Shown: piece by piece, positions 5,780 to 54,934 of the stretch
Layout: each line of letters starts with the position of its first letter
Numbering within the stretch: the first letter of the stretch is position 1
Assembly: GCF_020405205.1 (NCBI RefSeq)
Contig: NZ_CP084469.1
Coordinates: 124,001 to 188,000 of the forward strand
DNA length: 64,000 nucleotides
Direction: 5' to 3'
Source of the DNA: Natrinema salinisoli
GTDB lineage: Archaea; Halobacteriota; Halobacteria; Halobacteriales; Natrialbaceae
The notes under the pieces: generated by a model
What the model was told of the DNA's origin: nothing
The model's input: only the letters and a program-made list of their open reading frames with translations
Database searches by the model: none
Translations under genes and position numbers: made by a program

Positions 5780-5977
5780 CACCCCATAGATATCGTTCTC
5801 TTTCTCTCAAAACAAAACCATGAGCGTATATAAGGGACTAGCCGGTTCTGGTTACCGTTGCCTATCCACTTATCTCAGAACCCCAGGTATGACTCCTGTA
5901 TCTGTTGAATTCTCCGGATACACGGCGCAGTAGAGAACGTGGTAAGCTATAAGGTCTCGGGGTCGAAAGAGGAAACC

Positions 5978-6460: not shown

Positions 6461-7682
6461 TCAGACTGCCTCGTTCCAAGTCGCTGCGACAGCTGGCGAT
6501 GCCCGTGCCGGGACCCTCACTGTCAACGGTCAGTCACTCGACACTCCAACGTTTTTCCCCGTCCTGAGTTTCTATGGCGGTGGTACGAAATCCAGCGTCT
6601 TCGGCGGCGGCGTTCACAGGACGATAAAGGAGTTCATGCTCGGTAAGGAGGAGATCGGTGGCGGAACGTACGACGAATACTTCCGCGGAACGATGACCTC
6701 TGTTGCATCTCTCACTGACTACGGCATCAACCGGGAACGATTTGACGATTATGTCTCGGACCAAATCAAAGAACGAGAAACGTTTTCCGACTATAACGGC
6801 CTCATCTTCGTTGATTCTGGCGGATACAAATTCTTACATAACGATGGGCTTGACGGGAGTGATTTCGAGATAGAGATCGATCAACGGGAAGCGTTCCGCA
6901 TCCAGAAGCAGCTCGGCGGCGATATCATCGTCAACCTTGATCGGCCGATCGCTCCCAGCGACACGTTCGACGAACGGCAACAGAAGGCTGAACGCACCGC
7001 CGAAAATGCGGTTGAGTTTGCACGTCTTACCCAGGATTATCCAGGAGCCCGGTACCTGACCGTCCATGGATATAACTATTCGATGCTCGACCGGTTCTTC
7101 GACCACGTGCAATCCCAGTTCGGGAATATTGATATTTCTACCCTGTTTGACGGGATCGCTCTCGGCAGCCTTGTCCCGAAGAAAGATGACAAAGCAGCAT
7201 TGATCACCGCGGTCATGGACTGTGTCGAAATCATGGAGGAACGCGGGCTTGCTGATCTTCCACTCCACGTACTGGGCATTGGCAGTGGATCGATCCCGCT
7301 CCTTGTCGCTGCCGGCGCCGACACGTTCGACTCAACGACCTATCTCCTGAACGCTATCAACGAGAAGTATGCCGTGGGTTTGACCGAGCATATTCCGCTG
7401 GACGAAGTCGATTTCACCCAGTGTGACTGTGCCGTGTGCTCGGACCCGATGCTAGTCAACTGGATGCAGGGGAACACTGAATACCAGAAAGATGTTCTCG
7501 GCCCGGTCGCTATGCACAATCTTATCATCCACAGACAGGAGGTGCAAGAACTCCGGCAGCGGATCAAGCAGCACGGCACGGAACCGGTTATCGACTACCT
7601 TGACGAGACCGTGGGCCGGAATGATTCAATCCGCAAACAGACGCATCGCGTTGTCAACGAAGCGCTCGGAGGGTATTTCTAA
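6438..7682 (+). CDS. dpdA: DpdA-like DNA/tRNA guanine transglycosylase (TGT superfamily)
   Basis: This 414-residue protein is a clear TGT-superfamily enzyme. VDSGGYKF around residue 126 corresponds to the DSGGFQ general-base Asp of TGTs. NLDRP lies near 167, LHVLGIGSG at 276-284, and DTFDSTT at 295-301 carries the putative nucleophile Asp298. The zinc site is CDCAVC (329-334) with HNLIIH (360-365). TGTs exchange guanine for a 7-deazaguanine; DpdA homologues do this in DNA using preQ0. Archaea make preQ0 for archaeosine, so the substrate is available. The protein lacks the PUA-bearing extension of archaeosine TGT (TgtA) and sits among defence genes, both of which favour a DNA substrate. The gene symbol is given by similarity; direct DNA modification is inference. 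Confidence 0.8.
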   Translation: MPQLKQTDQTASFQVAATAGDARAGTLTVNGQSLDTPTFFPVLSFYGGGTKSSVFGGGVHRTIKEFMLGKEEIGGGTYDEYFRGTMTSVASLTDYGINRERFDDYVSDQIKERETFSDYNGLIFVDSGGYKFLHNDGLDGSDFEIEIDQREAFRIQKQLGGDIIVNLDRPIAPSDTFDERQQKAERTAENAVEFARLTQDYPGARYLTVHGYNYSMLDRFFDHVQSQFGNIDISTLFDGIALGSLVPKKDDKAALITAVMDCVEIMEERGLADLPLHVLGIGSGSIPLLVAAGADTFDSTTYLLNAINEKYAVGLTEHIPLDEVDFTQCDCAVCSDPMLVNWMQGNTEYQKDVLGPVAMHNLIIHRQEVQELRQRIKQHGTEPVIDYLDETVGRNDSIRKQTHRVVNEALGGYF

Positions 7683-7684
7683 CA

Positions 7685-9250: not shown

Positions 9251-9335
9251 GACGGTGACCGTTGCCTCTTAGGCAGGGAAATCGGGACTGTCTGCTACCA
9301 CAATATTAACGTGGAGATGACACGGGTGTAGGGAC

Positions 9336-11825
9336 ATGGAAAGCTCAGACGAAACACCACTTTGCGGTACTCGCGTTTTCCTGTATCCTGGTGACCCGGA
9401 CGGGACAGGGATCATCGACTATGATCCCACCGATTACCGGGAGATCTATCAGGATCTGGACTTCGTGGACAGTACCCAGTTTATCCGCTCTCTCGAGCAA
9501 GATATCAAGCTGAAAAACCGGTCTCTCCTCCGCGTGACCGACGGGGAACGGTTTGAAGTCCCGGAATACCAGCGAAATTTCTCGTGGGAGGAAGAACAGC
9601 ACGAGGAACTCTGGGATACGTTACTGTCAATTCTGACGCTGAAACCGAAATCTGGCGAACTCCCGGTGGACACCTACTTCGGCACTGTGTATATTGCTCG
9701 GTCCGCCCAGGGAGAAGTCTATGAGATCATCGACGGCCAGCAACGACTCTCCACGGTCTCTATCCTGCTGAAGAACATCAAGGACCACCTCGAAGAGAAG
9801 CGGACGAAGGTTGACGGGCAGCTCCAGGCGTACGCCGAACATATATGCGAGGAATACCTTGACGAATTGCTGTACCGGCGGAAAGGCCCGACGGAGACAC
9901 CGTTCCTAGAACTCAACGACCACGACGACAGCATCTACGAGCTGCTGTTTCAGGACCCGGAGAAAAAGGTTCAGACCCTGAAGGCGATGGACCAGTACGA
10001 CGGCCGCAAGCAGAATGCCATCCGTCTCCGGGACCTCTTCGACGAGGTTGGTATCCCCGAAGAGGTCTACGAAGAGGACGAGGAGCTGGCTGACACCGAT
10101 CTACTGGAATCGTTCCGGTACTTTGGTGACTCCCACCGCCGACTCGTGCGGACCGACGAATACTACGATGCGAAAGTCGCAGAGTTCGCAGACCGAGAGG
10201 AGTTCGACACGGCCGAGAAGGAGGTCAAGGCCCTGCTTAACCTCGCACATTTCACGCTGCGGTCTCTCCGCGTTTCCGAGTGTATCTTCCAGACTGATAA
10301 CCAGGAACTTCGGATCGAGGTCTTCCAGTCGCTGAATGACCGTGGTGTTGAGCTCTCCAGTATGGACAAGGTCCGGGCCCGTATCGTCGGCCGGTTCCAG
10401 GGCGAATCTGACAGCGACAAGCAGATCGCCCGCTGGGAGAACGTGGTCCAGATGTTCGGCGGTGACGCAGACGCCGTTGAAGACTTCCTTGCCCATTACC
10501 TGGCTGCGACCGAGAAATCGTTTGACACCGTGACTGATGCCCGCAGTAACATGCTGGAAGCGTTCCGGCTGAAACAGATCGGTCGCCGTGATATCAAGTC
10601 ACGGCTGGCAAGCCCTGGGCAGGCCCGAGACTTCCTCGAGGAACTGGAGAACTACGCAGGCCGGTACCGGGAAATCGTGACCGCGGACCTGACCGATGAC
10701 GACACTGAATTAAAAAAGGAGTACCGGGAAGAGTGCGAAGCCATCCTCCAACGGCTCAACAAGCTGGGAACAACACAGTGGCGGCCGTTCGTCATGTATG
10801 TCTACCAGGCCGTGACCGAGGCTCCCGGGAAGGATGCGTTCCTGCGCGACATCCTGAAAACGGTCGAGAACATCACGTTCCGTGTCGCGATTTCCGATCT
10901 CGTGGCGACCGTCGTCGATGATACCTATCCGAAAACCTGCCAAGCGTTCCGGGAGCTCGAACAGTCCGGGAACCAGTTCGACACTGAGCAGATCAGTGCA
11001 ACACTGGTCGATAACATCGATAGTTCGGCACGGCAGCTCTTTGGCGAGTCGTTCATCGATATCCTTGTCACCAGTGAAAACTGGCGGAACAACCAGACGA
11101 AGCAATTGTTCCTGAAGATCGCGGACGAGGATTTCCGGAGACGGAACCAGACCGGGATCACGAAGTCCGAACTAAGTGAGGATCCGAGCGAGGTCCACAT
11201 TGAGCACATCCTCCCCATCTCGTACTTCCTCCCCGGCAAAGAGAACCCGTATGCATGGCTGGAGTGCTTCTTCGATAACGGGAAGCGCAACATGATCGAA
11301 ACACAGATCGATTATCTGCGTACACGGGATGCCCACCTTCTCTCCTCTGACGATCCCGGCTACGATGAGATCGAGCAGATCATCGAGGGAATCGAGGAAC
11401 GGTTTGTCCGCGACCTAGGGAACATGATGCTCCTCGACGAAGAGGTCAACAAACCGATCAAGAACCGGCTGTTCTCGGTGAAGCTCCGAGAATACCACCT
11501 CCGGCACAGCAAGGACATGGACAACCTCGTCAACCAGTACTTCTCGACCGCCGATAACGTCTCGACCGACAAACTCGAGGAGCTTCTCGGGTTGGAGCTG
11601 CCAGAGGATGAAACTCAGTTCGGAGACGTCCATCCCACGGTCCAGTACTTCAACGAGTGGTGGACCTACGAACAGTTGATCGACCGGAAAGCGCAGCTCA
11701 TCACCGCCATACTGGAATCATTGAAGTTCCGTACGGAAGATGATGAATTCGAACCGTACATGGACGATATCGAAGACTACGTAGGAGAGGATATTGAGAA
11801 ACGGCTGGCAGTGCTGACCGCGTAA
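9336..11825 (+). CDS. DUF262/DUF1524 protein (GmrSD type IV restriction-like; DGQQR plus HNH)
   Basis: This 829-residue protein has an N-terminal DUF262 domain: FEVPEYQRNFSWEEEQ, GTVYIARS and IIDGQQRLSTV, the DGQQR nucleotide-handling motif. Near residue 620 HIEHILPISY is the His-rich core of the DUF1524 HNH nuclease. GmrS/GmrD proteins with this layout cleave modified DNA and hydrolyse NTP. DpdB of known Dpd systems also has a DGQ(Q)R ParB-like ATPase domain. It could therefore be the ATPase partner of the DpdA-like enzyme, the restriction component, or both. The gene follows the GHKL gene after 85 bases that contain an ATTAA-like promoter element (tattaacg near 9304). Confidence 0.8.
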   Translation: MESSDETPLCGTRVFLYPGDPDGTGIIDYDPTDYREIYQDLDFVDSTQFIRSLEQDIKLKNRSLLRVTDGERFEVPEYQRNFSWEEEQHEELWDTLLSILTLKPKSGELPVDTYFGTVYIARSAQGEVYEIIDGQQRLSTVSILLKNIKDHLEEKRTKVDGQLQAYAEHICEEYLDELLYRRKGPTETPFLELNDHDDSIYELLFQDPEKKVQTLKAMDQYDGRKQNAIRLRDLFDEVGIPEEVYEEDEELADTDLLESFRYFGDSHRRLVRTDEYYDAKVAEFADREEFDTAEKEVKALLNLAHFTLRSLRVSECIFQTDNQELRIEVFQSLNDRGVELSSMDKVRARIVGRFQGESDSDKQIARWENVVQMFGGDADAVEDFLAHYLAATEKSFDTVTDARSNMLEAFRLKQIGRRDIKSRLASPGQARDFLEELENYAGRYREIVTADLTDDDTELKKEYREECEAILQRLNKLGTTQWRPFVMYVYQAVTEAPGKDAFLRDILKTVENITFRVAISDLVATVVDDTYPKTCQAFRELEQSGNQFDTEQISATLVDNIDSSARQLFGESFIDILVTSENWRNNQTKQLFLKIADEDFRRRNQTGITKSELSEDPSEVHIEHILPISYFLPGKENPYAWLECFFDNGKRNMIETQIDYLRTRDAHLLSSDDPGYDEIEQIIEGIEERFVRDLGNMMLLDEEVNKPIKNRLFSVKLREYHLRHSKDMDNLVNQYFSTADNVSTDKLEELLGLELPEDETQFGDVHPTVQYFNEWWTYEQLIDRKAQLITAILESLKFRTEDDEFEPYMDDIEDYVGEDIEKRLAVLTA

Positions 11826-14811: not shown

Positions 14812-14973
14812 CTAGTTCCCTCGGATCTCTTCAACCGCGTCTTCCAACTGCTCAATAAGTTTCTCTGCCTCCTCCGCATCCAGGTAGTGATCGCACGTAA
14901 TCATCCCGGACGGGCCACGCGCATCCATCAACCGTACCTGCTTTCCGTCAACTTCAGCTTCCAGCGTTCTCAC
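14812..14973 (-). CDS. Small hypothetical protein (53 aa)
   Basis: A 53-residue frame fills the space between two accepted genes. It starts with GTG at 14973 inside the shared junction sequence GAGGGTGAGA and stops with TAG at 14812-14814. The product reads MRTLEAEVDGKQVRL, then a GPSGMITCDHYLDAEEAEK segment and a helical end. The overlap of its start with the end of the zinc-ribbon gene upstream fits the element's coupling pattern. Function unknown. Confidence 0.55.
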   Translation of the reverse strand: MRTLEAEVDGKQVRLMDARGPSGMITCDHYLDAEEAEKLIEQLEDAVEEIRGN

Positions 14974-15161: not shown

Positions 15162-15488
15162 CTACTCGTCGCACCTCGTTTTCTGTCCGGAAACTCCGAG
15201 TTCGTTTTTTAGGTCAGCTATTACATCCTCTACATCCCTGAAACTCAGTCCACGATCGCCGCGAATATCCCGTCGTTCAATCTCTTCTTCCATCTCGTCT
15301 AATCGTTCGCGGAGGTCTTCGCCTGCATAGAGTTTGACGCGGTGCAGCTCATCCTTGCTTCCTCGTTCATCAGGTCCTCTATGAGCTGGACAGCCGTCTT
15401 CTCCCCATCCGACAAACGTATGGCCGCATTCTTCGCACCGCCACGCAAATTCCATGGCTGGTTCTATTTCGTCACTCAGTGCTATCAC
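15162..15488 (-). CDS. Zinc-finger and coiled-coil protein
   Basis: The N-terminal third carries RCEECGHTF and DGCPAHRGP (Cys and His ligands). The rest is a charged coiled coil (LRERLDEMEEEIERR). The start is GTG at 15488 within GAGGGTGATAGCACTGAG. An in-frame CTG lies three codons further, at the position where paralogous junctions have GTG AGT GAG. The junction sequence is identical over 18 bases to the one at 16357-16376. Function unknown. Confidence 0.55.
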   Translation of the reverse strand: MIALSDEIEPAMEFAWRCEECGHTFVGWGEDGCPAHRGPDERGSKDELHRVKLYAGEDLRERLDEMEEEIERRDIRGDRGLSFRDVEDVIADLKNELGVSGQKTRCDE

Positions 15489-15513
15489 CCTCAGTTTCCG
15501 CTCCGATCTCTAC

Positions 15514-15999: not shown

Positions 16000-16174
16000 C
16001 ACTCTCACCCTGCGATTTCTCTGCGGAAACTGCATCTCTCGCTTCCTGAATGATATTCTGACCGCCTTTCCGCTGGTCCTCAGTCAATAGTCCCTCGTTC
16101 TGCATCGTGAACAGCATGTCCTCAGTAACCTCTGCCAGCTTCATCACCGCAGTTTCTATCTGTTCCTCACTCAC
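15992..16174 (-). CDS. Small helical protein
   Basis: The 60-residue product starts GTG AGT GAG at 16174, four bases after an AGGTGGTAG ribosome-binding sequence. An in-frame GTG at 16183 is the alternative start. The sequence (QIETAVMKLAEVTEDMLF) is helical. It overlaps the next gene by 8 bases. Function unknown. Confidence 0.5.
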   Translation of the reverse strand: MSEEQIETAVMKLAEVTEDMLFTMQNEGLLTEDQRKGGQNIIQEARDAVSAEKSQGESDG

Positions 16175-16370
16175 CGCTACCACCTTTCTCGCCTTGGTAG
16201 TGTTCACATTCAGGATTCCAGCATTCCAGTTCCTCTGTCCACGGATTCCAGTATAGACGTTCATTGCATCCCTGATTACACCTGAATGCTGCTTCCGGCA
16301 CTGCTGCCGAGTTTAACGGTGACATCTCCGGCGGCTGTAAATAATCTGGCTTATTGCTCAGTGCTATCAC
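16167..16370 (-). CDS. Zinc-ribbon protein
   Basis: A 67-residue protein with RCNQGCNERLYW and ECWNPECEHY, two CxxxC-type pairs that could bind one zinc. The GTG start at 16370 lies in the sequence GAGGGTGATAGCACTGAG and overlaps the end of the upstream gene. Part of the small-gene run 14.0-16.8 kb. Confidence 0.5.
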   Translation of the reverse strand: MIALSNKPDYLQPPEMSPLNSAAVPEAAFRCNQGCNERLYWNPWTEELECWNPECEHYQGEKGGSGE

Positions 16371-16539
16371 CCTCCTCTTTCTCGCGGATATTTACGACGC
16401 GTCTTGCGATCGCCTCTGACAGCGTTTGTGCATCCCCATACCAGATCGTGTCATCCGGCAGCCGATCGTCATCTGCCTCCTGGATGACCTCACCGATCTC
16501 CTGAACTAGTTCGTGCTCATCATGCTCCATCGTCGTCAC
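16351..16539 (-). CDS. Small acidic hypothetical protein
   Basis: The 62-residue product is read from GTG at 16539; an ATG at 16530 is the alternative. It ends in KEEGDSTEQ, where the EGDST codons double as the ribosome-binding and start module of the next gene. A matching EGDSTE tail without a gene body lies near 15.49 kb. Function unknown. Confidence 0.5.
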   Translation of the reverse strand: MTTMEHDEHELVQEIGEVIQEADDDRLPDDTIWYGDAQTLSEAIARRVVNIREKEEGDSTEQ

Positions 16540-32451: not shown

Positions 32452-33264
32452 TCAGGTACCACCCTGCTCGATCATCTGTTCCAGCATCTCGTTCAGCGTT
32501 TCCGGCTTCTCTGTGAACGCATCAAGTGACGCCTGTTCCGACGGCTGCAGGTCGTGTTTCTCCACGAAGAAATTCGGGTGGTCCACCCGGCCCGGTACGG
32601 CACCGATATGCATCTGTGGGTTGCCGAACGGCGGCTGCGTCATGACATCGATCCGCTTCCCGAAGATGAACGTCCGCTTCCGGCGCTGTGGAACACCATA
32701 GTTCGCGGCGTTCAAGATATCCCATGTGACGTTGTACCCACCCTGCCGGAACTCGTCGCACACCCGCTGAATCACGTCGCCATCCTCCATCGTTGCTAAT
32801 CCCGGTACGTTCTCCATCACGAAGAACACGGGCTTGGCCTGATGCACGATGCGGACCATCTCCAGGTATAGCGCGTTCCGTTCGTCGTCCGGGTCACGGT
32901 TCCCCGCCATCGAAAACCCTTGGCACGGTGGACCGCCGAAGATCACAGTGATCCCGCCGACACCGACATCTGCGGCCTCCAGAATCTCTGACGTGCCAAC
33001 CTCACGGATGTCCTCTTGGATAATCGTCGACTCCGTATGATCGTTGAACGCCTCCATGTTCAGTCGCAGCGTATCGCAGGCGGTCTCCTCGTTCTCCACC
33101 ATGACGCGAACATCAAACCCGGCCTGCTCGAATCCCAGATCAAACCCGCCTGCCCCGGTGAACAGACTGACACCAATCGGCGGGTCGCAGTGACCGAGCC
33201 GTTCCTGCAAGTCCTGCTCGTCCTCATACCAGAACTGCCCCATCGGACTGCTGTTCTCAATCAC
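32452..33264 (-). CDS. C5-cytosine DNA methyltransferase
   Basis: A 270-residue protein with the canonical order. SLFTGAGGFDLGFEQAG is motif I, FGGPPCQGFSMAGN is motif IV with the catalytic Cys, FVMENVPGL is motif VI (ENV) and GVPQRRKRTFIFG is motif VIII. The target-recognition region and motifs IX-X are short, so it is near the lower size limit of the family. No cognate endonuclease is adjacent, which suggests an orphan methylase protecting the element or masking host restriction sites. Confidence 0.85.
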   Translation of the reverse strand: MIENSSPMGQFWYEDEQDLQERLGHCDPPIGVSLFTGAGGFDLGFEQAGFDVRVMVENEETACDTLRLNMEAFNDHTESTIIQEDIREVGTSEILEAADVGVGGITVIFGGPPCQGFSMAGNRDPDDERNALYLEMVRIVHQAKPVFFVMENVPGLATMEDGDVIQRVCDEFRQGGYNVTWDILNAANYGVPQRRKRTFIFGKRIDVMTQPPFGNPQMHIGAVPGRVDHPNFFVEKHDLQPSEQASLDAFTEKPETLNEMLEQMIEQGGT

Positions 33265-40450: not shown

Positions 40451-40923
40451 CAGCACATCTTCCCCCGGATAATCACGTTCTCCTGATCGCGTTTCCGACA
40501 ACTATGCACCTTCGTCGGCCACTCCACCCACCGCGGCGTCTTCGCAATATGCTGCATCTTCTCGTTCAACTCCTGCAGCAACTCGAACCGATCCGACCCG
40601 ATCTCCGCCTCCTTCATCAACGCCTTCACCTCGTGCTTCAACTGGATGAACTGGCGTCTACAGTAGAGCCATTTCGCGCAGCCCCTGCGTAAGAGCGAAA
40701 GTCGCACCACGTTCTTCCCTTCTTCATCCAGATCGAACGCCTTCGCCAGATCGGATACGATAAGCTCAGGGTGATTTTGACGGCATTGCCAGATTGTAGC
40801 CGGATCAATATCCACATCTGAGAAATCGTAATGCCCCGGCACTTCCGGGCCCACGGTTTCATCCAGATAGAACCGCCGCGGCCGCCGCAACTGCCGATCA
40901 TACGCCTCACTCACCGCAACCAC
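40450..40923 (-). CDS. Basic helical protein
   Basis: A 157-residue protein from GTG at 40923; GTG AGT GAG at 40914 is also possible. It contains a putative HTH (DPATIWQCRQNHPELIVSDL, then AKAFDLDEEGKNVVRLSLL) and basic helices (FIQLKHEVKALMKEAEIG). It may bind DNA. It overlaps its downstream neighbour by one base (TGATG). Confidence 0.5.
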   Translation of the reverse strand: MVAVSEAYDRQLRRPRRFYLDETVGPEVPGHYDFSDVDIDPATIWQCRQNHPELIVSDLAKAFDLDEEGKNVVRLSLLRRGCAKWLYCRRQFIQLKHEVKALMKEAEIGSDRFELLQELNEKMQHIAKTPRWVEWPTKVHSCRKRDQENVIIRGKMC

Positions 40924-41117
40924 CTCACGAACAGGACGACTACGCCGAGCACCGCGTACCAGAACAAAGCGTTCAGCCCGACCACGTACACCGCCGAACT
41001 CCAGAACTCGGCCATGAACGCTTCTCGACTCGTTGCCGGTAGCGTCATCAACAGCGCGAAATACGCGATCACCGCTGCTACCACTCGTTTCCCTGTGAAC
41101 AGACTAACGGGTATCAC
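40911..41117 (-). CDS. Small membrane protein
   Basis: The 68-residue product, from GTG at 41117 inside CAGGGTGATA, has two transmembrane helices (VAAVIAYFALLMTLPA and AVYVVGLNALFWYAVLGVVV). Ends VLFVRWLR. Function unknown. Confidence 0.5.
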   Translation of the reverse strand: MIPVSLFTGKRVVAAVIAYFALLMTLPATSREAFMAEFWSSAVYVVGLNALFWYAVLGVVVLFVRWLR

Positions 41118-41346
41118 CCTGCCTCTCAATATATTCCTGGACCGCTTCCGGGTCCTGACCGATCATCCTGTGCTTCTGTTCATCATACAATTCCCATCCA
41201 TGCTGCAGACACAGTAACGGACTCTGAAACCCGTGCTTCCGGGTTTCCAGAATCAGATAACCCGGCTGGTCACAGTCCTCCGGCCGATACTCACATCTCT
41301 CAACGAACAGCTTCTGCAGAAATCGTCTAATTCGCAACGTTATCAC
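41104..41346 (-). CDS. Hypothetical protein with Cys pair
   Basis: An 80-residue protein from GTG at 41346 within GAGGGTGATA. It reads FLQKLFVERCEYRPEDCDQ and ESPLLCLQHGWELYDE-like text (actual SPLLCLQHGWELYDEQKHRM). Cys and His could form a zinc site. It ends in QGDTR, providing the next junction. Confidence 0.5.
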   Translation of the reverse strand: MITLRIRRFLQKLFVERCEYRPEDCDQPGYLILETRKHGFQSPLLCLQHGWELYDEQKHRMIGQDPEAVQEYIERQGDTR

Positions 41347-41806
41347 CCTCGGATTCGATAACTGGTTTCCCACGCGACCGTCGAACACTATTCCGGATAC
41401 GTCGCCGCTCATCCTCATCCAACGGCTCCAGACCAGTGGCCTCCTTGACGATACTAACGGCACGCGAAAACACTGACTCGGACATATCAAACCGTCGGAA
41501 CAACGATCCCCGACCCGTCTCTTTCCGCTGCTCCTCCGCAAACACATGATACAGATACGACCGCCGAAAAAATAACCGCTGCAATTCCGCTGCGCCTCCG
41601 TCTTCGCTATACGCCGCAAGCACGTCATCCAATACTTCCTTCCAGGCATCAAGCCGTGCCCCTTCCTCGGAGATCCACAGCCGAGCCTCGGGATCCGGCT
41701 GGTACGGATGCGCCATCTCCTTGCACTCCTGCAACCGGTCGGCTGCATCGCTGATCTGATCCGCGCATTCACTGACGAGATGCTCGCGTTCGAGATTCTT
41801 ACCCAC
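41327..41806 (-). CDS. Hypothetical protein, paralogue of the 42170 gene
   Basis: A 159-residue protein from GTG at 41806 (GTG GGT AAG, after GAGGGTGGTAGCG); an in-frame GTG at 41815 is possible. It is helical. Its segment SLFRRFDMSESVFSRAVS matches SLYDRIDMSESAFRKNIV of the 42170 gene, so the two are paralogues. The DMSES motif precedes a likely DNA- or protein-binding helix. Function unknown. Confidence 0.55.
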   Translation of the reverse strand: MGKNLEREHLVSECADQISDAADRLQECKEMAHPYQPDPEARLWISEEGARLDAWKEVLDDVLAAYSEDGGAAELQRLFFRRSYLYHVFAEEQRKETGRGSLFRRFDMSESVFSRAVSIVKEATGLEPLDEDERRRIRNSVRRSRGKPVIESEGDNVAN

Positions 41807-41987
41807 CGCTACCACCCTCGAACCGCGACAGAATCGCATCGACAAATCGCATCAGGTGCTTCACCGCGATCCCAAACGAGATAACAGTCGCCACCAGCAA
41901 CAGCATCGGGACGATAAACCAGGCGAACAGCCCCAAGACAAACTCTTCATCGTACTCTTCTAACAGTTCCGGCGTCGGCTCACTCAC
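41799..41987 (-). CDS. Small membrane protein
   Basis: A 62-residue protein, GTG AGT GAG at 41987, with one or two hydrophobic helices (LGLFAWFIVPMLLLVATVIS). Ends RFEGGSGG, whose last codons carry GAGGGTGGT, the start module of the next gene. Function unknown. Confidence 0.5.
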   Translation of the reverse strand: MSEPTPELLEEYDEEFVLGLFAWFIVPMLLLVATVISFGIAVKHLMRFVDAILSRFEGGSGG

Positions 41988-42186
41988 CACAACCACCCTC
42001 GTCAGGACCAATATCGCTGTGCATCTCCCGGACCGATTCCGGAACCTCGGATTCATCGACCTCAACCTTCTCGTCGGCAATGATCCGCTCAGGATGGCCG
42101 TCAACTTCCTCCCACTCCGTCACCCTGTACCAGTTCCCGGTCAACGGACTCTTCCCGTACCGTACATCCTCACTCAGCGATATCAC
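41980..42186 (-). CDS. Hypothetical protein
   Basis: A 68-residue protein from GTG at 42186 in GAGGGTGATATCGCTGAGTGAG; an in-frame CTG AGT GAG lies three codons later. It reads YGKSPLTGNWYRVTEWEEVD and ends PDEGGCGE. Beta-rich; function unknown. Confidence 0.5.
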   Translation of the reverse strand: MISLSEDVRYGKSPLTGNWYRVTEWEEVDGHPERIIADEKVEVDESEVPESVREMHSDIGPDEGGCGE

Positions 42187-42790
42187 CCTCTGTAACCGGC
42201 TCAAAACCGCCGATCTTCTCTTCCTCCGTACGTTCAAACGTCACCTCGTACAGCGTGACCTCACCGTCCCGGCACTCTACGCGATACAGTGTGGCTTCGT
42301 CGTCACCGTCACGGTCCATCGCATCTATCCGCTGGAACTCATGCTCGATCGAACTATGCCACACGACAAATGGTTCAGTGCACTTGCTAACCGCGGACCA
42401 GAATCGGAAAAACTCACTCTGTGACGTCCCGTACGCCAGGCCAAACCGCTCAACATTGTAATTATACCCGATCGGCCCTGTCCGGTAGTCCTCATGACTT
42501 TCGATTATCTTGGTCAGATTCTGCTTATCCGGGTTATGGTCTAACGCGAATGCATCCGATGGCTTCCACGTCTTGAATCCCTTCAAAACGTCGTATTCCC
42601 GTATCGGATACTCACTGTAATCCTTCTCCCGGTCAGTGACGATGTTCTTCCGGAACGCGCTCTCTGACATATCGATTCGGTCGTACAACGATTCGAACTC
42701 CTCCTTCTCCAGAATTTTCGGCGGTCGATCACCGACATTACCATCCTCCGTCAGCCGATACAGCTGCGAATACGCTGCCGTGAAACTCAG
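42170..42790 (-). CDS. Hypothetical protein with apparent CTG start
   Basis: The frame from CTG at 42790 (overlapping the upstream TGA as CTGA, five bases after GAGGGTGAT) to 42170 gives 206 residues. TTG at 42688 is the first conventional start but would cut the region (KEEFESLYDRIDMSES) that aligns with the paralogue at 41327. No ATG or GTG exists in frame between the upstream in-frame TGA and 42688. The DMSESAFRK motif precedes a domain with YPIREYDVLKGFKTWKPSDA and a beta-rich end. Function unknown; the CTG start is inference. Confidence 0.5.
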   Translation of the reverse strand: MSFTAAYSQLYRLTEDGNVGDRPPKILEKEEFESLYDRIDMSESAFRKNIVTDREKDYSEYPIREYDVLKGFKTWKPSDAFALDHNPDKQNLTKIIESHEDYRTGPIGYNYNVERFGLAYGTSQSEFFRFWSAVSKCTEPFVVWHSSIEHEFQRIDAMDRDGDDEATLYRVECRDGEVTLYEVTFERTEEEKIGGFEPVTEGDIAE

Positions 42791-43197
42791 TGCGTATCAC
42801 CCTCGTCCTCAACGTATTCCGCGAACTCCTCGAACATGGAAAACGCCTCACGGACACTCCGGCCGTTCTCATCGTCGTAACAGGCAATCGTATACCGTTG
42901 CCCGGTATTCGCATCAGGATACCCGGCACGGTACCCCTGATCCTCGCAGAACGCGTCCACCGTCTCATCGTCAAGTGAGGCCGCGACCACCTGTTCCGTG
43001 ACCGTCCCATCCGGCACCTGCACAGCGGATGCTGTACTGTCCACTGGAGCATCGTCTACCGCAGTACCGCTATCTCCGAAGATAACGGTAATCCCGATAA
43101 TGAACGCGGCACCAAGCAGAAACGCGATACACAGATACGGAACCATCTCCTCCGCACTATACCCATCCTCCCGCCACGGCTTCTGATCAGTAATCAG
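42787..43197 (-). CDS. Single-pass membrane protein, CTG or ATG start
   Basis: From ATG at 43146 the product (119 residues) starts with a membrane helix (MVPYLCIAFLLGAAFIIGIT) and has an extracellular-type domain with EDQGYRAGYPDANTGQRYTI. The frame continues upstream as KPWREDGYSAEE to CTG 43197. That CTG overlaps the previous stop (CTGA) two bases after GAGGGTGAT. The 136-residue CTG version gives a normal cytoplasmic N-tail. Confidence 0.5.
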   Translation of the reverse strand: MITDQKPWREDGYSAEEMVPYLCIAFLLGAAFIIGITVIFGDSGTAVDDAPVDSTASAVQVPDGTVTEQVVAASLDDETVDAFCEDQGYRAGYPDANTGQRYTIACYDDENGRSVREAFSMFEEFAEYVEDEGDTH

Positions 43198-43535
43198 GTA
43201 TCACCCTCTTGCTCGAGTTCCTCAGCGAACTTCCTGCCTTCCTCGGCCAGTTCCTCGGCACCTTCCATGTAGACCTCCTGCAGTTCGTCTTGGTCACGGA
43301 TCACTGCCACCTCGTCATCCACGAACTCGTCGACAACCGCTTCCTCCACCCGGTCAACAATAGCATCGTCCAGATCCGTCCGGCGAACAGCACCGATCAC
43401 AAGCTCCGCCCAGTCATGATAATGAACAGGACCGAGCCCGTAGAACATGATCTCATCCCCCGTATCGATAACGTACTGCTCCGTTTTCTCCCCTTCAGCG
43501 TACCGCCGCGGCCATCCTATCCGCATATAGCTCAC
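43194..43535 (-). CDS. Acidic hypothetical protein
   Basis: A 113-residue protein from GTG at 43535, four bases after GGAGGGTGAT. It has an N-terminal beta segment (MRIGWPRRYAEGEKTEQYVI) and then acidic helices (EAVVDEFVDDEVAVIRDQDE). Ends EQEGDT, the module for the next gene. Function unknown. Confidence 0.5.
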   Translation of the reverse strand: MSYMRIGWPRRYAEGEKTEQYVIDTGDEIMFYGLGPVHYHDWAELVIGAVRRTDLDDAIVDRVEEAVVDEFVDDEVAVIRDQDELQEVYMEGAEELAEEGRKFAEELEQEGDT

Positions 43536-44298: not shown

Positions 44299-46362
44299 TC
44301 AGACGTACTCGGATGCCGGGACGAATTCTATCTGGTCCGGCACTCCACCAAACTCGTCTTCTACCGCCGATCGTATCTGATCCATGACACCGTCCTCGAG
44401 GTACACCACCTCCACTCGGTCCACCCCGTAATCGAGACATTTCCGGATGTTCTCCAGTTCGTGCCACGCCGACCGTGCGACCTCGACCGCTATCGACACA
44501 ACACCGCGCTCGACATAGACATCGATCGACTCACTCCCCACCGCGTGCTCGATCTCCACGTCAAACCCGTCGGATTCGTAAAACTCCTTAATCTGATGTT
44601 GCCAGTACCGGTGCTCGACCCCACGCCTCCCAGTCTCCGGTACATCGTACCCACGGTCCTCGAGAACAGTACGGCCCTTCTCGGTCAACTCCAGTAGCGT
44701 CGGATTCTTCCCGCGCTTTCCGTTCCGCACCGTCTCCTCACTTACCAAGTCTAGAGCCACCAATTCTTCTTTCGCCGCCGTCCCTTTCTTCGACCCGACA
44801 CCGATCACGTCGTACCGCTCTGAGACGGACAGGAACGGCTCCTCCACGATACTGATCAGCAGGGCTTCCGCTACCGCGTCCGGTCCGTCATCGTCACCGT
44901 CACCAGCATTTTCGTCCTGCTCTATCGGTTCGTCACCACTCGAGTCTTCCCCGACTTCACTCTGGAACAGCGACGGCTGCATCCGCTCTGCACAGTCCAG
45001 TCTGTCGAGTTCCGACCGCATCCGCTCCCTAATCTCTGTCTCGGTCACCGACTTCTCCAGCTGGTAATCCGGTAACTCGACCGGCACCGGGCCGCGGTCC
45101 GCCACGGTCAACAGTGCTTCTCCCTTCTCCAACGTCCGCGTATACTCCGTCTCCTCCGCATCCAACCCAAACGTCCGCTGCATCTCCTCCGTATCCTTCC
45201 CCGAACCGAGGGACATCCACAGCTTCGCGTTCGTATTCGCTTTCAGCGAGTCCGACAACTTACTCGGTTCGTGATCGGCTACGATCAATGCCTCACCGAA
45301 TTCCCGGACCTGCCCCATCAACGTGGATATCGGCGGATTCGGCGAATCACTGTCTCGCTCCCGGTTCACGTCGAACACGTGCTTGGCCTCGTCGAACAGG
45401 ACAACGTGCCGCAACCCCTGCCGATGCCCCTGCGCCTCCCGGTAATAGAAGATCCACGTCAACAACGCTTCCACCACGAACACCTGCACGTCCTCGATCG
45501 GCTCCTGCAACTCGACCACCACGTTCCGCTCGAGAAACTCCTCAAACGGATAGCTCTGACTGCAGTCGAACACCTCGCCGGAGAACCCGGTCATCCCGGT
45601 CAACCGGTTATCCAGACGTTCCTTGTACCGGTACCGTGGCGAGGCGTACGGGATCTCATCGGCCCGTACCAGCTCTAAGAGTTCGTACAGCGACGGCCAC
45701 TCACCAGCATCAGTATCGTAGAACCCGTACAGTTCACGGAGCTTTCGGATGAAGTAGCCGCGTGACGCCTTCCACAATCCCATCGCGTGCGTCCACGTAT
45801 CCGCCATGACCTCCGCCCACCGCGCCACAGAGACATCGGGCGGCGGCTGCAACGGATTAAATTTGAGATCCCGCCAGTTCACCACGAGCAGGTCACGGTG
45901 TCCGGCCAGATGCCGGTAATCGTTCTTGAAATCGAACACCAAGAACGGCAGATCCATCCCGGCGCACTCGTCCATCAGATTGTAGAACAGGGTCGTCTTC
46001 CCCGCACCGGTCCGACCCACAATCAGCATGTGCTCGTTCAACTGCTCCCGAGTCAACCCGACCGGCTGCCCCTCCGGGTTCGTCCCGATCCGGAAATCCC
46101 CATCATACGACTCGAACGGGTACTCCCAGTCATAGTACGTATCCCGGCTCTCGATCTCCTCGACCTGCGGCCGATACATCTCCACAAAGCTGTCGTGCGC
46201 GTCCCGATCCATCGCCGCCATCGAAAGGATCTGCTTGATCTTCTCTGCGGACAGGCCGACCAGTTCCAGCATCTCCCGCAACTCCGCGAGCTCCTCCCGG
46301 GACGGCGTATCCTCGTCGTTGCCGATCCATGCCATACCCGGCGGTACGGCAGTGATCTGCAT
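44299..46362 (-). CDS. HerA/TraG-type ATPase with C-terminal winged helix and nuclease-like domain
   Basis: The 687-residue protein has a Walker A at HMLIVGRTGAGKTTLFYNL (about 110-128). FLVFDFKNDYRHL follows, and VVLFDEAKHVFDV is the Walker B region. AEALIVADHEPSKLSDSLKA-like text (actual FGEALIVADHEPSKL) corresponds to the sensor region of VirD4/TraG/HerA pumps. The second part contains a winged-helix segment (GTAAKEELVALDLVSEETV). The end (FDVEIEHAVGSESIDVYVE, then VVSIAVEVARS) resembles a restriction-nuclease fold with partly degraded catalytic residues. ATG at 46362 is used. A role in DNA transfer, packaging or segregation is likely. Confidence 0.75.
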   Translation of the reverse strand: MQITAVPPGMAWIGNDEDTPSREELAELREMLELVGLSAEKIKQILSMAAMDRDAHDSFVEMYRPQVEEIESRDTYYDWEYPFESYDGDFRIGTNPEGQPVGLTREQLNEHMLIVGRTGAGKTTLFYNLMDECAGMDLPFLVFDFKNDYRHLAGHRDLLVVNWRDLKFNPLQPPPDVSVARWAEVMADTWTHAMGLWKASRGYFIRKLRELYGFYDTDAGEWPSLYELLELVRADEIPYASPRYRYKERLDNRLTGMTGFSGEVFDCSQSYPFEEFLERNVVVELQEPIEDVQVFVVEALLTWIFYYREAQGHRQGLRHVVLFDEAKHVFDVNRERDSDSPNPPISTLMGQVREFGEALIVADHEPSKLSDSLKANTNAKLWMSLGSGKDTEEMQRTFGLDAEETEYTRTLEKGEALLTVADRGPVPVELPDYQLEKSVTETEIRERMRSELDRLDCAERMQPSLFQSEVGEDSSGDEPIEQDENAGDGDDDGPDAVAEALLISIVEEPFLSVSERYDVIGVGSKKGTAAKEELVALDLVSEETVRNGKRGKNPTLLELTEKGRTVLEDRGYDVPETGRRGVEHRYWQHQIKEFYESDGFDVEIEHAVGSESIDVYVERGVVSIAVEVARSAWHELENIRKCLDYGVDRVEVVYLEDGVMDQIRSAVEDEFGGVPDQIEFVPASEYV

Positions 46363-46414
46363 ACTCGGACTGCGGCGGACCACGGATCCGTGGAATCACC
46401 ACGGCCGTGGCATC

Positions 46415-47428
46415 TCAGATGTTGTCGAGGTACTGCCGTCGCTGCTCCATCTTCTCCCGCTTGGTCCGACGATCATAGTGTTCGTCGATCACTCCTTCGG
46501 ACACGTTCGCCCGGTTGCTCACGGCCTTGGTCGGCCACTCCTGATTAAGCGCGTACGTGATCCCGCCACGCCGCAGTGCATGGGGACTCACGCTTGAGGG
46601 ACACTCGTACGGATGCTCGTGATCGAGCGCCGAACAGGTATCCTGGTCGCGGTCATGCGGACAGTTCCCGGTGACGATGCAGGGTCGAGTGAACCGGTAG
46701 CAGTCACCGCGCAGCGTCCCCTTATGGGCGCGGCCCTGCCGTGTTGCCAGTAACGGTTCGCGGCCGTACTCGTCGGTGACATCCGGACGACGCGTCTCGA
46801 TCCAGTCGTCAAGCAGTGCACAGAGGTCGTCGGAGATTGCGACCAGCCGCTCACCCTTCGCTTGGTTCTTGATCGGGGTGCCCGTGTCCGGCTGGTGATG
46901 GATTTCCAAGAGTTGCTCGTCCGGGTCGTAGTCATCCACATCGAGCGCGTGTGCTGCCCCGACGCGCATCATCGTATGCCACAACAGGCTCAGCAAGACG
47001 TGGGGCCGTGACGCGTACTCGTACTTCTCAAGGTAGTCCAGGATCTCGTCTGCCCGGTCCTGTTCCAGCATCACGTCACGGACGTTGTCCTTCCCCGTCA
47101 GCAGTGGTGATCGGACCTTGACGTGCAGATCTTCTTCCGCGGCGTCGATCGACTCGAGGTACTTCACGAACACGCGGACGGTATCCATCTGCGTCTTCTC
47201 GGAGGCCGGTGACAGGTCACCGTCTTCGCGGCGCCACATCCGGTATTCCTGCATCTTCCGGCCGGTCAAGTCGTTCAGGTTGTCGATACCCTGTTCGTTG
47301 CACCAGCGCACGAAATGGCCGAGACGGGAGCTGTGGGAGTACAGTGTTGCTTGCGTGACCTCGGTATCGCGGTCGGTCAGGTACAGGTCCAGTGCGGTTT
47401 CCGGGTCGATGGGTTCCAAGTTCTCCAT
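46415..47428 (-). CDS. int: Tyrosine recombinase (integrase)
   Basis: The 337-residue protein shows the N-terminal SAM-like core-binding domain (TLYSHSSRLGHFVRWCNEQG). The catalytic domain reads LWHTMMRVGAAHALDVDDYD (first Arg), SPHALRRGGITYAL (HxxR) and EHYDRRTKR (Tyr). It has an insert with a Cys/His cluster (CPHDRDQDTCSALDHEHPYEC), as in many haloarchaeal integrases. The ATG at 47428 is used. It lies next to the att-like sequence and probably moves the element in and out of a tRNA gene. Confidence 0.85.
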   Translation of the reverse strand: MENLEPIDPETALDLYLTDRDTEVTQATLYSHSSRLGHFVRWCNEQGIDNLNDLTGRKMQEYRMWRREDGDLSPASEKTQMDTVRVFVKYLESIDAAEEDLHVKVRSPLLTGKDNVRDVMLEQDRADEILDYLEKYEYASRPHVLLSLLWHTMMRVGAAHALDVDDYDPDEQLLEIHHQPDTGTPIKNQAKGERLVAISDDLCALLDDWIETRRPDVTDEYGREPLLATRQGRAHKGTLRGDCYRFTRPCIVTGNCPHDRDQDTCSALDHEHPYECPSSVSPHALRRGGITYALNQEWPTKAVSNRANVSEGVIDEHYDRRTKREKMEQRRQYLDNI

Positions 47429-47636
47429 GGGTTGACACACGGAACCAGGGTGGAGAACAGACCTGCGGTGACCGGACGTAACCCGGCGATTCTACGCTCA
47501 GAAAGTGGATTCGTTCGAGGCGCGTCCGCAAGCCTGCAGCGCCCATGTTTCTGTCGCGAACAAATTCGTGAGCGACAGATACCGGATCGCGAAGGATTTG
47601 ACATAGACGGCGGCGAGCGAAGCGAGCCGACGGCGT

Positions 47637-51288: not shown

Positions 51289-52389
51289 ATGGGCACCAGT
51301 CTCAATCCCGATGCATGGGAAGGCAGAAGCGTACATAGTGAATCTACACTTCATCAGCTATCGCCTTTTTTGGGTAAAATGAAGTCCACCATGGCAAAAG
51401 AATTGGTTCAGACCTACTCATCACCGGGCGACACTATTCTTGATCCTTTTTCTGGATCTGGCACAGTCCCTCTTGAAGCCGCTATTGAGCAAAGAGCAGC
51501 AATCGGCGTGGATAGAAACCCATATTCAATTTTGTTATCGAAAGCAAAATTAAACCCTCCAGAAACAGAGAAGAAGGCCAAGCAGAAGGCTAAAGAATAT
51601 CTCGCTAAAATTGAGCCACACCCAGGGAAAGGAACTGAATCCATCCCAGAGTGGGTCGCTGATTTCTTCCACCCAAAAACACTGTCCGGAATTGCTCAGC
51701 TAAGTCCCTTACTTCGAGAGGAAAACGAACACTTTCTTCTTGCCTGTCTGCTAGGAATTCTCCATCACCAGAGACCTGGATTCCTGTCATATCCTGCTAG
51801 CAATTTAAAACCATATCTGAGAGATAAGAAATTCCCACGGGACGAGTACCCGGAAAAATACGAGTATCGGGAGATTGAGTCCCGATTAATCTCGAAAATT
51901 GAGCGAGCATACCGTAGGTTTCCAGAATTTGATGATTCTCTCACACGATCAGTATATATGGGAGATACAGAAGAGATTATAAATCAAGAAATCCCAAATA
52001 ATTCAGTCGACACCATTATCACGAGTCCACCATATATGAACAAACTTGATTATGGGAGGGACAACCGCCTGAGGCTATACTTTTTGGGAATTGAAGATTA
52101 TAAAGAGTTGGATGGGAGTCCAGAAAGCAAAAAACAATATAGAGACTTCTTAGATAGGTTCCTAACAGAAGCAATCTCTGTACTACGTCCAGACGGAAAT
52201 TTAATTTTCGTGATGGGCGAGTCACAGCGCTCAGGTGCAGCTGTGGACACCTCAGAAGTTCTTACTGAGATGGTAAACAAAAACAAATATGGTCTAAAAA
52301 TGGAGCAAGTAATACAAGATAAAGTCCCGAGAAGAGAAATAAACTCAATGTCTACAAAGTCTGAGACAATTTTAGCACTTAAAAACTAA
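51289..52389 (+). CDS. DNA methyltransferase (N4/N6 type, DPF.GSGT / TSPPY)
   Basis: A 366-residue protein with DTILDPFSGSGTVPLEAA (SAM motif I, about 48-65) and IITSPPYMNKLDYG (motif IV SPPY, about 243). RPDGNLIFVMGES follows as a late strand. The order places it among the amino-methyltransferases. It is the first gene of an AT-rich cassette with unusual codon use, and its stop is one base before the kinase-ATPase gene. It probably modifies host DNA to mark self. Target sequence unknown. Confidence 0.85.
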   Translation: MGTSLNPDAWEGRSVHSESTLHQLSPFLGKMKSTMAKELVQTYSSPGDTILDPFSGSGTVPLEAAIEQRAAIGVDRNPYSILLSKAKLNPPETEKKAKQKAKEYLAKIEPHPGKGTESIPEWVADFFHPKTLSGIAQLSPLLREENEHFLLACLLGILHHQRPGFLSYPASNLKPYLRDKKFPRDEYPEKYEYREIESRLISKIERAYRRFPEFDDSLTRSVYMGDTEEIINQEIPNNSVDTIITSPPYMNKLDYGRDNRLRLYFLGIEDYKELDGSPESKKQYRDFLDRFLTEAISVLRPDGNLIFVMGESQRSGAAVDTSEVLTEMVNKNKYGLKMEQVIQDKVPRREINSMSTKSETILALKN

Positions 52390-52390
52390 T

Positions 52391-54934
52391 ATGACAGTCA
52401 AGAAACCTTCAAAGTCGAGCATTATTGGAAAAACGTTACTAAATAATTGGGAGGTTGTTGAGGAAATTGACTCGGGTAATAATGGGGTTGTTTATCGTGC
52501 GGCACACACCGCTGAAGAGGTAGATATGGATTCGGCATGCAAACTCATGCCAATAGGAGATCTGACCGAGGGTTGGGAAAAAGAAGTTGAGAAGGCAACC
52601 ATGATGGATACTCATCCAAATGTTGTTAGTATCAAAGATTACACAAGAATTGAAATAGACAAAACAGAATACGCATGTGTGATATCAGAATTCGTTGATG
52701 GTCCCTCACTTCTAAAATATATACAAGATAAACCAGATCAGATTACTGTATCATTTGTCTGTTCAGTAGCAGAGGCAATTCTTGATGTGCTTCATGGAAT
52801 GGAACGAAGGGAAATCAATCATAACGACCTACATACTGGGAACGTCCTTTTATCAAAATCAGATATTACAATTAGCGACGAACCCCAAATCAAGATAACC
52901 GATTTTGGAATTGGGGGGTCCCGAAATTCAATGCAGCCCAAAAATGACTACGCGCAATTGGGCGACATAATTCTAGATCTGCTTTCGGAAATCGATCGAT
53001 CAAAGTTAGATACTCTTGACGAGTACCGCTACGAATTCTTAGTTGATGAATTCGTTGCCAAATATATCGTAGAGGAAGATCCTACCAAAGGCGAGTATGT
53101 CCGCTCGCCGCAGGAATTGCAAGGTAAACTAAAAGAAAACAAATCGAAGGCGAGAGAACGGATGGGTGACAAGCCAACTGTTGAACTACAAAGTCCATTT
53201 GATTACTTGAGCTGCGAGCAGATGGGTGATTCGTTTAGACTCATAGAAAAACTCTACTCCAGAGACTTTCCAGGATATGGCCAACTTCACAGTCGAACAA
53301 ATACACTTCTCACTGGTCCGAGGGGTTGTGGCAAGACAACTATTTTAAAGAATATGGATCTTGAAACACAGTTGGAGACTGGGCAAATAAAATCTGCTGA
53401 TGAAATTGATTATTTCGGTATATTCTATCCATGCCGCGACTTGTATTTTGCCTTTCATTATATGGATGACAAGGATCCAAGCTCATATAATCAAAATCTA
53501 TTGATCCACTATCTATCACTCTCTCTGCTTAAGAAATTTATAAATCGAGTTAGGTTACTCCGTGATCAATTTGGAAATAATATCTCTGAGGATTCTTTGA
53601 GGCTGTTGGAGGAGAATATTTCCAGAACCCTTCGAGATTACTCTAGCCCTCCAGCAGGCACTGATGTTCTTGACCATCTTACCTCCGTTCTTGAGAAAGA
53701 GAAAAGAAAGGTTGACGATACACTAAGACGAGGTGAATCAGGTTACAGCGATGAAACTCGTCTGATGGGAATCGATAGGCTCCCAAAAACTTGCAAAAAT
53801 TTCATTAATTCAGTTGATTGGCTTAAAAACACACCCCTATTCTTTTTAGTTGACGATTATTCTCTTCCAAAAATCACTCAGGGTATGCAGAGCACACTAA
53901 ATGACCTAGTGATGGAGCGGTGGGACCAGGTATATTTCAAAATATCCACCGAAAGCATCGCATCCTTCCATCCATATGACCGGTCTGAGAAACTTCTTGA
54001 GGAGTCAAGAGAATTTGAGGTTGTTGATCTAGCGAATCATTTCATTAGTAATACTGAAAAGCGCAACAAATTCTTAACAGAAGTGCTGAATACGCGCTTA
54101 GAGACCACCAGTGGAATCCATTCCAAATACACGGATATCTATGAGATATTAGGAGAGAGGCCCTATGACTCATATAATGACCTAGCTCGACAGCTTCGAA
54201 GTGACTCTGATGTTGATTATGCAGGTTTTGAAACCTTGAGAGATATGTTCTCAGGCGATATTTCTGAGATGCTTCGCTTAGTACGGGGGATGTTTAATGA
54301 GGTGGGCCAAAACAAAAACTGGGAAGAAGGAAGCGTTGAAGTCCCAATTCCACCACAAAAGCAGGATGAAGTTATCAAGAGATACGGGGGGAGTTTCCTT
54401 AATAAGATAGAATCAATACCAGAGAGCGGCGAACGACTCCGAGAGGTCGCTGAAGCATTCGGACAACATGCGAATCAATTGCTCATGGAGAAGACCAGTA
54501 AAAATGAGACTGGTAACCCTCCACTTCAAGCCTTCCGGATTGAGATACGCGACTCATTCTCATTTGACTCGGATGAACACGTTAACGAAGTACTTAGAGT
54601 CCTACGTAGGAATACCTCGCGCCGTCCCGAAAAACAGGACATCTCAGAGGAAGCAGAATCTATTTATAACGATTTACTCCAATACGGAATATTCCTCTTA
54701 GACACTCGTGGAAAGAGTATTCGCGGCGGAGCGGTTCCTCGCCTTTATCTGCGGAGACTCCTACTTCCAAAATTCAATCTCACCCCAAGCCAGCGCGACA
54801 ACGTCTCTCTAGAGCCTGCCGAATTCATGTATTTGTTGTCGAATCCTGAAGGCTATGACGCTTCAGACTTTGAGCGATCGGAAACAGAAAGTCTCTCCAG
54901 GTTCATCGATGATTCAGACGAGAAATCGGAGTGA
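52391..54934 (+). CDS. Ser/Thr protein kinase fused to P-loop ATPase
   Basis: The 847-residue protein combines two machines. Residues about 18-240 are a protein kinase: IDSGNNGVVYRA is the glycine loop, SACKLM holds Lys51, INHNDLHTGN is the catalytic loop with Asp146 and Asn151, and ITDFGIG holds Asp171. All key residues are present. Residues about 270-700 form an AAA/STAND-like ATPase: LLTGPRGCGKTTI (Walker A, Lys315) and LFFLVDDYS (Walker B, 483-490). A helical and winged C-terminus follows. BREX/Pgl systems use a separate PglW kinase and PglY ATPase; here one protein does both. Likely a signalling switch that activates on infection. This is inference. Confidence 0.8.
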   Translation: MTVKKPSKSSIIGKTLLNNWEVVEEIDSGNNGVVYRAAHTAEEVDMDSACKLMPIGDLTEGWEKEVEKATMMDTHPNVVSIKDYTRIEIDKTEYACVISEFVDGPSLLKYIQDKPDQITVSFVCSVAEAILDVLHGMERREINHNDLHTGNVLLSKSDITISDEPQIKITDFGIGGSRNSMQPKNDYAQLGDIILDLLSEIDRSKLDTLDEYRYEFLVDEFVAKYIVEEDPTKGEYVRSPQELQGKLKENKSKARERMGDKPTVELQSPFDYLSCEQMGDSFRLIEKLYSRDFPGYGQLHSRTNTLLTGPRGCGKTTILKNMDLETQLETGQIKSADEIDYFGIFYPCRDLYFAFHYMDDKDPSSYNQNLLIHYLSLSLLKKFINRVRLLRDQFGNNISEDSLRLLEENISRTLRDYSSPPAGTDVLDHLTSVLEKEKRKVDDTLRRGESGYSDETRLMGIDRLPKTCKNFINSVDWLKNTPLFFLVDDYSLPKITQGMQSTLNDLVMERWDQVYFKISTESIASFHPYDRSEKLLEESREFEVVDLANHFISNTEKRNKFLTEVLNTRLETTSGIHSKYTDIYEILGERPYDSYNDLARQLRSDSDVDYAGFETLRDMFSGDISEMLRLVRGMFNEVGQNKNWEEGSVEVPIPPQKQDEVIKRYGGSFLNKIESIPESGERLREVAEAFGQHANQLLMEKTSKNETGNPPLQAFRIEIRDSFSFDSDEHVNEVLRVLRRNTSRRPEKQDISEEAESIYNDLLQYGIFLLDTRGKSIRGGAVPRLYLRRLLLPKFNLTPSQRDNVSLEPAEFMYLLSNPEGYDASDFERSETESLSRFIDDSDEKSE

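Follow-up and report, generated by a model that had tools for sequence, protein, structure and literature searches.

Where does translation begin when a reading frame overlaps the stop codon of its upstream neighbor and offers no ATG, GTG or TTG nearby? Two junctions in one operon raise this question. They lie in the window (the whole stretch of DNA that was analyzed, 64,000 nucleotides), which corresponds to C1:124001-188000 of a 4.70 Mb haloarchaeal genome. The operon runs on the minus strand from about 43700 to 37500, behind genes for a HerA/DUF87-type ATPase (44299-46383, minus strand) and a tyrosine recombinase (46415-47440, minus strand; Phage_integrase match). The ATPase has a 69% identical homologue in G295, a genome of the same family. 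As in integrative elements, the integrase gene (46415-47440) sits at one element end. A search for att repeats found no direct repeat of at least 17 bp shared between the integrase flank and any other part of the window, and family matches were absent for most of the products tested. The operon with the two junctions is probably part of a haloarchaeal integrative element, and a further minus-strand operon of small genes lies in the window at about 16780-14000.

Palindromes around GAACGTTC (e.g., GGTCCGAACGTTCGGACC) occur at or near several operon promoters in the window (22712, 35155, 35197, 43751 and ~16780), and palindromes of this type are also present at L042 ~13124 and before the x1 homologue in G295. 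They resemble an operator common to several operons. Elsewhere in the window, a defense-like cluster (73-11825, plus strand) encodes a DpdJ-like helicase, a TGT/DpdA-like transglycosylase, a HATPase protein and a GmrSD-type nuclease. A low-GC stretch (51289-54934, plus strand) carries a type II methyltransferase-like gene and a kinase-like gene that matches PD-T4-6, MADS and CARF-STK models.

Predicted start codons of genes d and c

The first-pass annotation had proposed that both genes start with CTG in CTGA stop-start overlaps. The layout that it described is present in the sequence. CTGA overlaps lie on the minus strand at 42790-42787 and 43197-43194, each behind GAGGGTGAT, and GGTGAT and CTG are separated by 5 nt at 42790 and by 2 nt at 43197, which agrees with the two to five bases given there. 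Both downstream frames are closed by a TGA within GGTGAT, with two codons between TGA and CTG at 42790 and one at 43197. Nearby canonical codons are indeed lacking, the first ATG, GTG or TTG being ATG 43146 for gene c and TTG 42688 for gene d. Sister junctions at 43535, 41987, 41806, 41337 and 40316 have GTG or TTG at the same place, and the first-pass argument from GTG at sister junctions holds.

Gene d (42170-42790, minus strand, 206 codons) has a proposed CTG start at 42790-42788, in a 4-nt overlap (CTGA) with gene c's stop. Its ribosome-binding sequence, GAGGGTGAT (42796-42804, minus strand), was assigned from the sequence and the 16S tail GGATCACCTCC and ends 5 nt before CTG. Five plasmid records matched gene d in tblastn searches; H1, H3 and H5 were opened, and H2 and H4 were left out. 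In the plasmid records of Halocatena marina RDMS1 and Halomontanus rarus, the homologue has ATG exactly at residue 1, and a scan of genome contigs placed ATG in the column of d's CTG in Halocatena marina DFN5 and Halobacteriales archaeon YIM A00010 as well. All four of the fetched homologues that reach the N terminus therefore carry ATG at this column, and the N terminus LSFTAAYS of d aligns with MSFTAAYS, MSFTAAYS, MSFTSAYS and MSYTAVYG. Two partial homologues (L017 and L013) begin at residues 39 and 24, respectively, and are uninformative about the start; a search of viral contigs gave nothing useful. The 33 codons before TTG 42688 are conserved in the homologues, and this extension scores as coding relative to off-frame windows (P=0.013). 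Together, the homologues' ATG and the codon score make the predicted start of gene d at CTG 42790 well supported.

The extra N-terminal codons of gene d had also been said to align with a paralogue. BLASTP of the 206-aa protein against the product of 41327-41803 returned a single notable match of 22 residues, which covers residues 34-55 and adjoins TTG 42688; nothing notable was found in the extension, and it is the distant homologues that align from residue 1. That part of the first-pass annotation did not hold up.

For gene c (42787-43194, minus strand, 135 codons), the G143 orthologue points instead to an ATT start at 43194-43192, one codon after CTG 43197. ATT 43194 forms TGATT, a 1-nt overlap with the stop of gene b, and the corresponding overlap in G143 is TAATT. 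The ribosome-binding sequence of c, GAGGGTGAT (43200-43208, minus strand), lies 5 nt before ATT and 2 nt before CTG; gene b (43194-43535, minus strand), its upstream partner, has its own GTG start 5 nt behind GAGGGTGAT. Among 322 class genomes searched, a full-length homologue of c was found in one genome besides its own, G143 of the same genus (61% identity), and searches of plasmids and viral contigs gave nothing useful. The DNA alignment across the junction is free of gaps, with GGTGAT-AC-CTG-ATT-ACT in the window and GGTGAT-AG-CTA-ATT-ACC in G143. Thus, the orthologue has CTA for CTG 43197, keeps ATT and has GTA for ATG 43146, and its first canonical codon comes 22 codons after its ATT. 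The 16-codon extension of c is kept in the orthologue (P, W, G, Y and S conserved) and scores as coding relative to off-frame windows (P=0.012). Since the orthologue keeps ATT and neither CTG nor ATG 43146, and since the gap to ATT is the regular 5 nt, the start of c was placed at ATT 43194. With the orthologue favoring a codon one position later, c is not a clear CTG case; ATT 43194 is most likely its start, and CTG 43197 is the lesser option.

Junction codons in the window and in related elements

Further candidate starts were found in the window. Gene e (41980-42177, minus strand, 65 codons) would start at CTG 42177 (GGTGAT-atcg-CTGAGTGAG; codon score P=0.023) and gene f (16167-16361, minus strand) at CTG 16361 (GGTGAT-agca-CTGAGC; P=0.032). 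Gene g (15162-15479, minus strand), which is without a stop-start overlap, would start at CTG 15479 (GGTGAT-agca-CTGAGTGAC; P=0.31, not significant), and gene h (14812-14964, minus strand) at CTG 14964 (GGTGAG-aacg-CTGGAA). In these four, CTG stands 4 nt behind GGTGAT or GGTGAG, and the GTG of GGTG is in frame three codons upstream. They are weaker candidates than d and c because the 4-nt gap puts that GTG in frame. Homologue searches in plasmids for e, f, g and the par protein, and in viral contigs for g, gave nothing useful.

An identical 18-bp cassette comprising the ribosome-binding sequence and CTG stands before two genes of the second operon (15475-15492 and 16357-16374) and ranks with the longest exact direct repeats of the window. 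GTT, which is not one mismatch from ATG, occurs 4 nt behind GGTGAT and in the next gene's frame at 41108 and 38409. The first of these would head gene i2 (40911-41108, minus strand), whose second codon is Ser. The second belongs to a Fic gene, where the GTG inside the motif at 38418 could serve as start; the Fic homologue does not settle GTT 38409. At 32452-32455, GGTGGT-acctg-ATC (or CTG) overlaps the stop of a C5-methylase gene and stands 14 to 15 codons before the ATG of an N6-methylase gene.

Junctions were scanned in the window's element and in parts of G143 (20 kb), G295 (49 kb) and G051 (38 kb), with the downstream frame chosen by length and not by codon. The scan gave 51 rows, and the 28 whose upstream frame reads GGT GAT and continues to a stop were kept. 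Their codons were GTG (9), ATT (5), CTG (5), ATC (3), ATG (2), TTG (1), ATA (1), GTT (1) and CAC (1): 12 canonical, 14 near-cognate (CTG, ATT, ATC or ATA) and 2 other, so that 26 of 28 are start codons or single-mismatch codons. The near-cognate codons account for 14 of the 16 junctions that lack ATG, GTG and TTG, compared with 6.9% in coding frames (binomial, 6e-15), and for 10 of 12 without the four rows that led to these places (1.5e-10); this test assumes independent rows, an assumption somewhat violated by repeats such as the 18-bp cassette at 15475 and 16357. The 19 junctions with a 5-nt gap comprise 9 with ATG or GTG, 10 near-cognate and none other. When the whole window was scanned on both strands in a slightly different way, 13 rows resulted, with 5 canonical, 4 near-cognate and 4 other codons (GTT twice, CAC and GGG). 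The same second scan of 80 kb more of the G143 contig and five plasmid or contig loci gave 5 rows, with 1 canonical, 4 other and no near-cognate codons; two of these rows are the same site in two strains.

G295 contains homologues of HerA (69%), the C5-methylase (81%), gene j (75%), x1 (55%) and x2 (92% over 51 aa) and therefore holds a related element. Among its junction codons are CTG, one ATC and two ATT that share an identical 15-mer. The second ATT heads an XF1762-like gene with its frame closed three codons before ATT and no canonical codon until number 32. The plasmid homologues H13 to H17 align to this protein from residues 4, 6, 4, 8 and 14, each with an ATG within about ten residues of the alignment start, and an NCBIfam profile covers residues 29-167, that is, from before codon 32. 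(XF1762-like genes with an in-frame ATG are also present in the plasmids NZ_CP098517.1 and NZ_CP127176.1 [L089 and L091] without an annotated feature, in a gene table that is incomplete by design.) The search with the G295 CTG protein gave one weak partial match. The ATC start of a G295 helicase is unconfirmed, because its close homologues carry a different N-terminal domain. After x2, the window has CTG, and G295 has GTG and a different gene; at the start of gene j, the same column holds GTG in the window and ATG in G295.

A second ATT was found in G143, and the sole plasmid matches to its frame begin at residue 19, ahead of the first canonical codon (number 35). G051, from another family, has nearby genes for relatives of HerA (34%) and the C5-methylase (35%). 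In one G051 operon (G051:C4:249972-253606, minus strand), the motif is followed by ATC, CTG, ATC, ATA and ATC, and in another (G051:C4:261889-264729, plus strand) by ATC, ATT and ATC; the motif is GGTGAT, once GGTGAA across both operons. The first canonical codons in both lie 21 to 208 codons inside. Searches of viral contigs and plasmids for homologues of the G051 proteins that reach the N terminus found none, and the plasmid matches listed extend only from about residue 97 on. The CTG/ATT/ATC/ATA layout is common to the window, two relatives (G295 and G143) and the distant G051 element.

Class-wide, near-cognate junctions of this layout are few. The pattern GAGGGTGATN{1,6}CTGA has five matches in the 4.70 Mb genome, all five in the window on the coding strand, and a reversed-pattern control has none. 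GGTGATN{1,7}NTGAGYGA matches 13 times in the same genome (ATG 7, GTG 3, CTG 3, TTG 0; control 0); its sole CTG match outside the window, C1:3909972, lies within a longer frame and was discarded. In 391 class genomes, GAGGGTGATN{1,6}CTGAGYRA has seven matches in five genomes, three of them in the window; only one of the other four, that in G295, is a gene junction. GAGGTGATN{1,6}BTSAGYGA gave 116 rows in 242 genomes (GTG 64, GTC 30, TTC 8, CTG 6, CTC 5 and TTG 3). Three of the six CTG places are inside longer frames and three head frames of 46, 53 and 7 codons, with no clear start among them. With CTG 6 versus CTC 5 behind GAGGTGAT in these 242 genomes, the idea that haloarchaea generally use CTG as a start behind a strong Shine-Dalgarno sequence was rejected. 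AGGGTGATNNNTRATH gave 36 rows in 351 class genomes. The 27 read in context include three clear junctions (gene c in the window, G143 and G295), plus one ATT in G051.

A coupled-reinitiation model and its rivals

At many junctions of these elements, the upstream gene encodes Gly-Asp (GGT GAT) at its end, a stretch that doubles as a strong Shine-Dalgarno sequence, and the downstream frame begins 4 to 6 nt after GGTGAT, mostly with ATG, GTG or TTG or with a single-mismatch CTG, ATT, ATC or ATA. The 16S tail, read in two of the three 16S loci of the genome (Rfam 16S family), is GGATCACCTCC; therefore, GGTGAT pairs with it over six bases. Both matches to the initiator-like arm CGGGCTCANAACCCG of tRNA-Met, searched by this arm alone, carry CAT, and no tRNA genes were found in the window. 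The predicted sites combine a stop-start overlap (CTGA at 42790, TGATT at 43194) with a Shine-Dalgarno motif in the upstream gene and an N terminus that is conserved, in four homologues for d and in one orthologue for c. The codons there are CTG and ATT, not the canonical starts of coupled gene pairs, and CTG, ATT, ATC and ATA each differ from AUG at one position.

In the model that we favor, a ribosome finishing the upstream gene would be held by GGTGAT pairing next to the overlapping codon, and the ordinary initiator tRNA-Met (CAU) would start there in spite of the mismatch. What may make the mismatch tolerable is that Shine-Dalgarno pairing holds the ribosome and that, at overlaps, termination has only just taken place at that spot. 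The product would be Met initiated, and translation would probably be weaker. Stop-start coupled reinitiation of this kind, with d starting at CTG 42790 and c at ATT 43194, is in our judgment quite probable. A broader version, in which the start is set mainly by GGTGAT and the 4- to 6-nt gap and CUG, AUU, AUC and AUA are used about as often as AUG, GUG and UUG in several elements, has an even chance of being correct.

The original proposal that both genes start at CTG has in its favor the CTGA at both places behind GAGGGTGAT and appears correct for 42790. As an account of 43197 as well, it is unlikely: the orthologue has CTA, the gap is 2 nt versus the usual 4 to 5, and conservation is seen at the ATT that follows, which has a 5-nt gap. 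Were translation to begin at TTG 42688 and ATG 43146 and leave the upstream codons untranslated, it would use the first ATG, GTG or TTG of each frame. This reading is very improbable, since homologues that start at ATG match the 33 codons preceding TTG 42688, ATG 43146 is GTA in the orthologue, and no GGTGAT lies near either codon. For two genes there is support for the core idea that a strong ribosome-binding sequence precedes a stop-start overlap with a non-canonical start. Of the two CTG starts, 42790 stands, with ATG in the column of four homologues, and 43197 gives way to the likelier ATT 43194. The earlier observation is thus partly confirmed, being wider than first noted with one of its two codons misassigned, and its interpretation of junctions 42790 and 43197 is partly supported.

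If e, f, g and h, all with a 4-nt gap, started at the GTG inside GGTGAT, only d and c would need non-canonical codons. That GTG is in frame in each of the four, as it is for the 4-nt-gap CTG codons of G295 and G051. It would lack a ribosome-binding sequence at the usual distance, however, and where these genes have CTG, GTG or TTG is found at sister junctions whose gap is also 4 nt; we regard such starts as rather unlikely. There is very little chance that the start codons were lost and the genes are silent or decaying, or that the C and ATT calls are sequencing errors. Near-cognate starts are generally weak, ATT reaching about 0.3% of ATG in a 64-codon test (Hecht 2017, as cited in PMC10666635), but these reading frames remain intact and are conserved, several junctions in separate assemblies (G000, G143, G295 and G051) share the pattern, and 26 of 28 junction codons are starts or single mismatches.

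Relation to known systems and consequences

Single bacterial genes with AUU or CUG starts are known, and codons with one mismatch are read by the ordinary initiator tRNA. Those bacterial starts are isolated cases, whereas the predicted near-cognate starts recur across the junctions of a single type of archaeal element. Overlapping gene pairs (ATGA and TGATG) with termination-reinitiation have been described in Haloferax volcanii and E. coli (PMC6728339, PMC10666635). The junctions resemble the coupled pairs of H. volcanii in their 4-nt and 1-nt overlaps, in the Shine-Dalgarno sequence inside the upstream gene and in host class. They differ from the pairs described in those two papers, which have canonical starts, in using CTG, ATT, ATC and ATA; PMC10666635 mentions ATT only as a possible rare explanation of -5 overlaps. 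CTG has also been proposed as a haloarchaeal start for small proteins of H. volcanii, where Table 1 of PMC12482152 gives it for three of the seven listed proteins detected by mass spectrometry. Those are peptides encoded by small RNAs, whereas the element's genes belong to operons, have a Shine-Dalgarno sequence and an overlap, and have homologues that carry ATG at the corresponding column.

A passage in a review of archaeal initiation (PMC7531240) names only AUG, GUG and UUG, and CUG, AUU and the term near-cognate are absent from the review's main text; the curated haloarchaeal start codons as given in excerpts of PMC4500146 include no CTG, and start codons go unmentioned in excerpts of PMC8651126. 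No report of recurrent CTG, ATT or ATC starts in haloarchaeal elements was found in titles and abstract openings of the open literature, a scope that lies mostly outside subscription papers. Judged from sequence, the recurrent near-cognate starts are a variant of known coupled Shine-Dalgarno initiation that would be new in the codons used.

Since near-cognate starts are not accepted by gene finders, annotations probably shorten such genes or miss them. If the predicted starts are correct, genes of haloarchaeal mobile elements are truncated or overlooked by gene finders limited to ATG, GTG and TTG, and if codons with one mismatch to AUG are used as often as canonical ones, whole operons of such elements would be misannotated. 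If this wider reading is true, weak codons may also set stoichiometry along the operon. The junctions, with the same ribosome-binding sequence and gap and a varying codon, would form a natural, testable series for the stringency of archaeal start codon selection in reinitiation.
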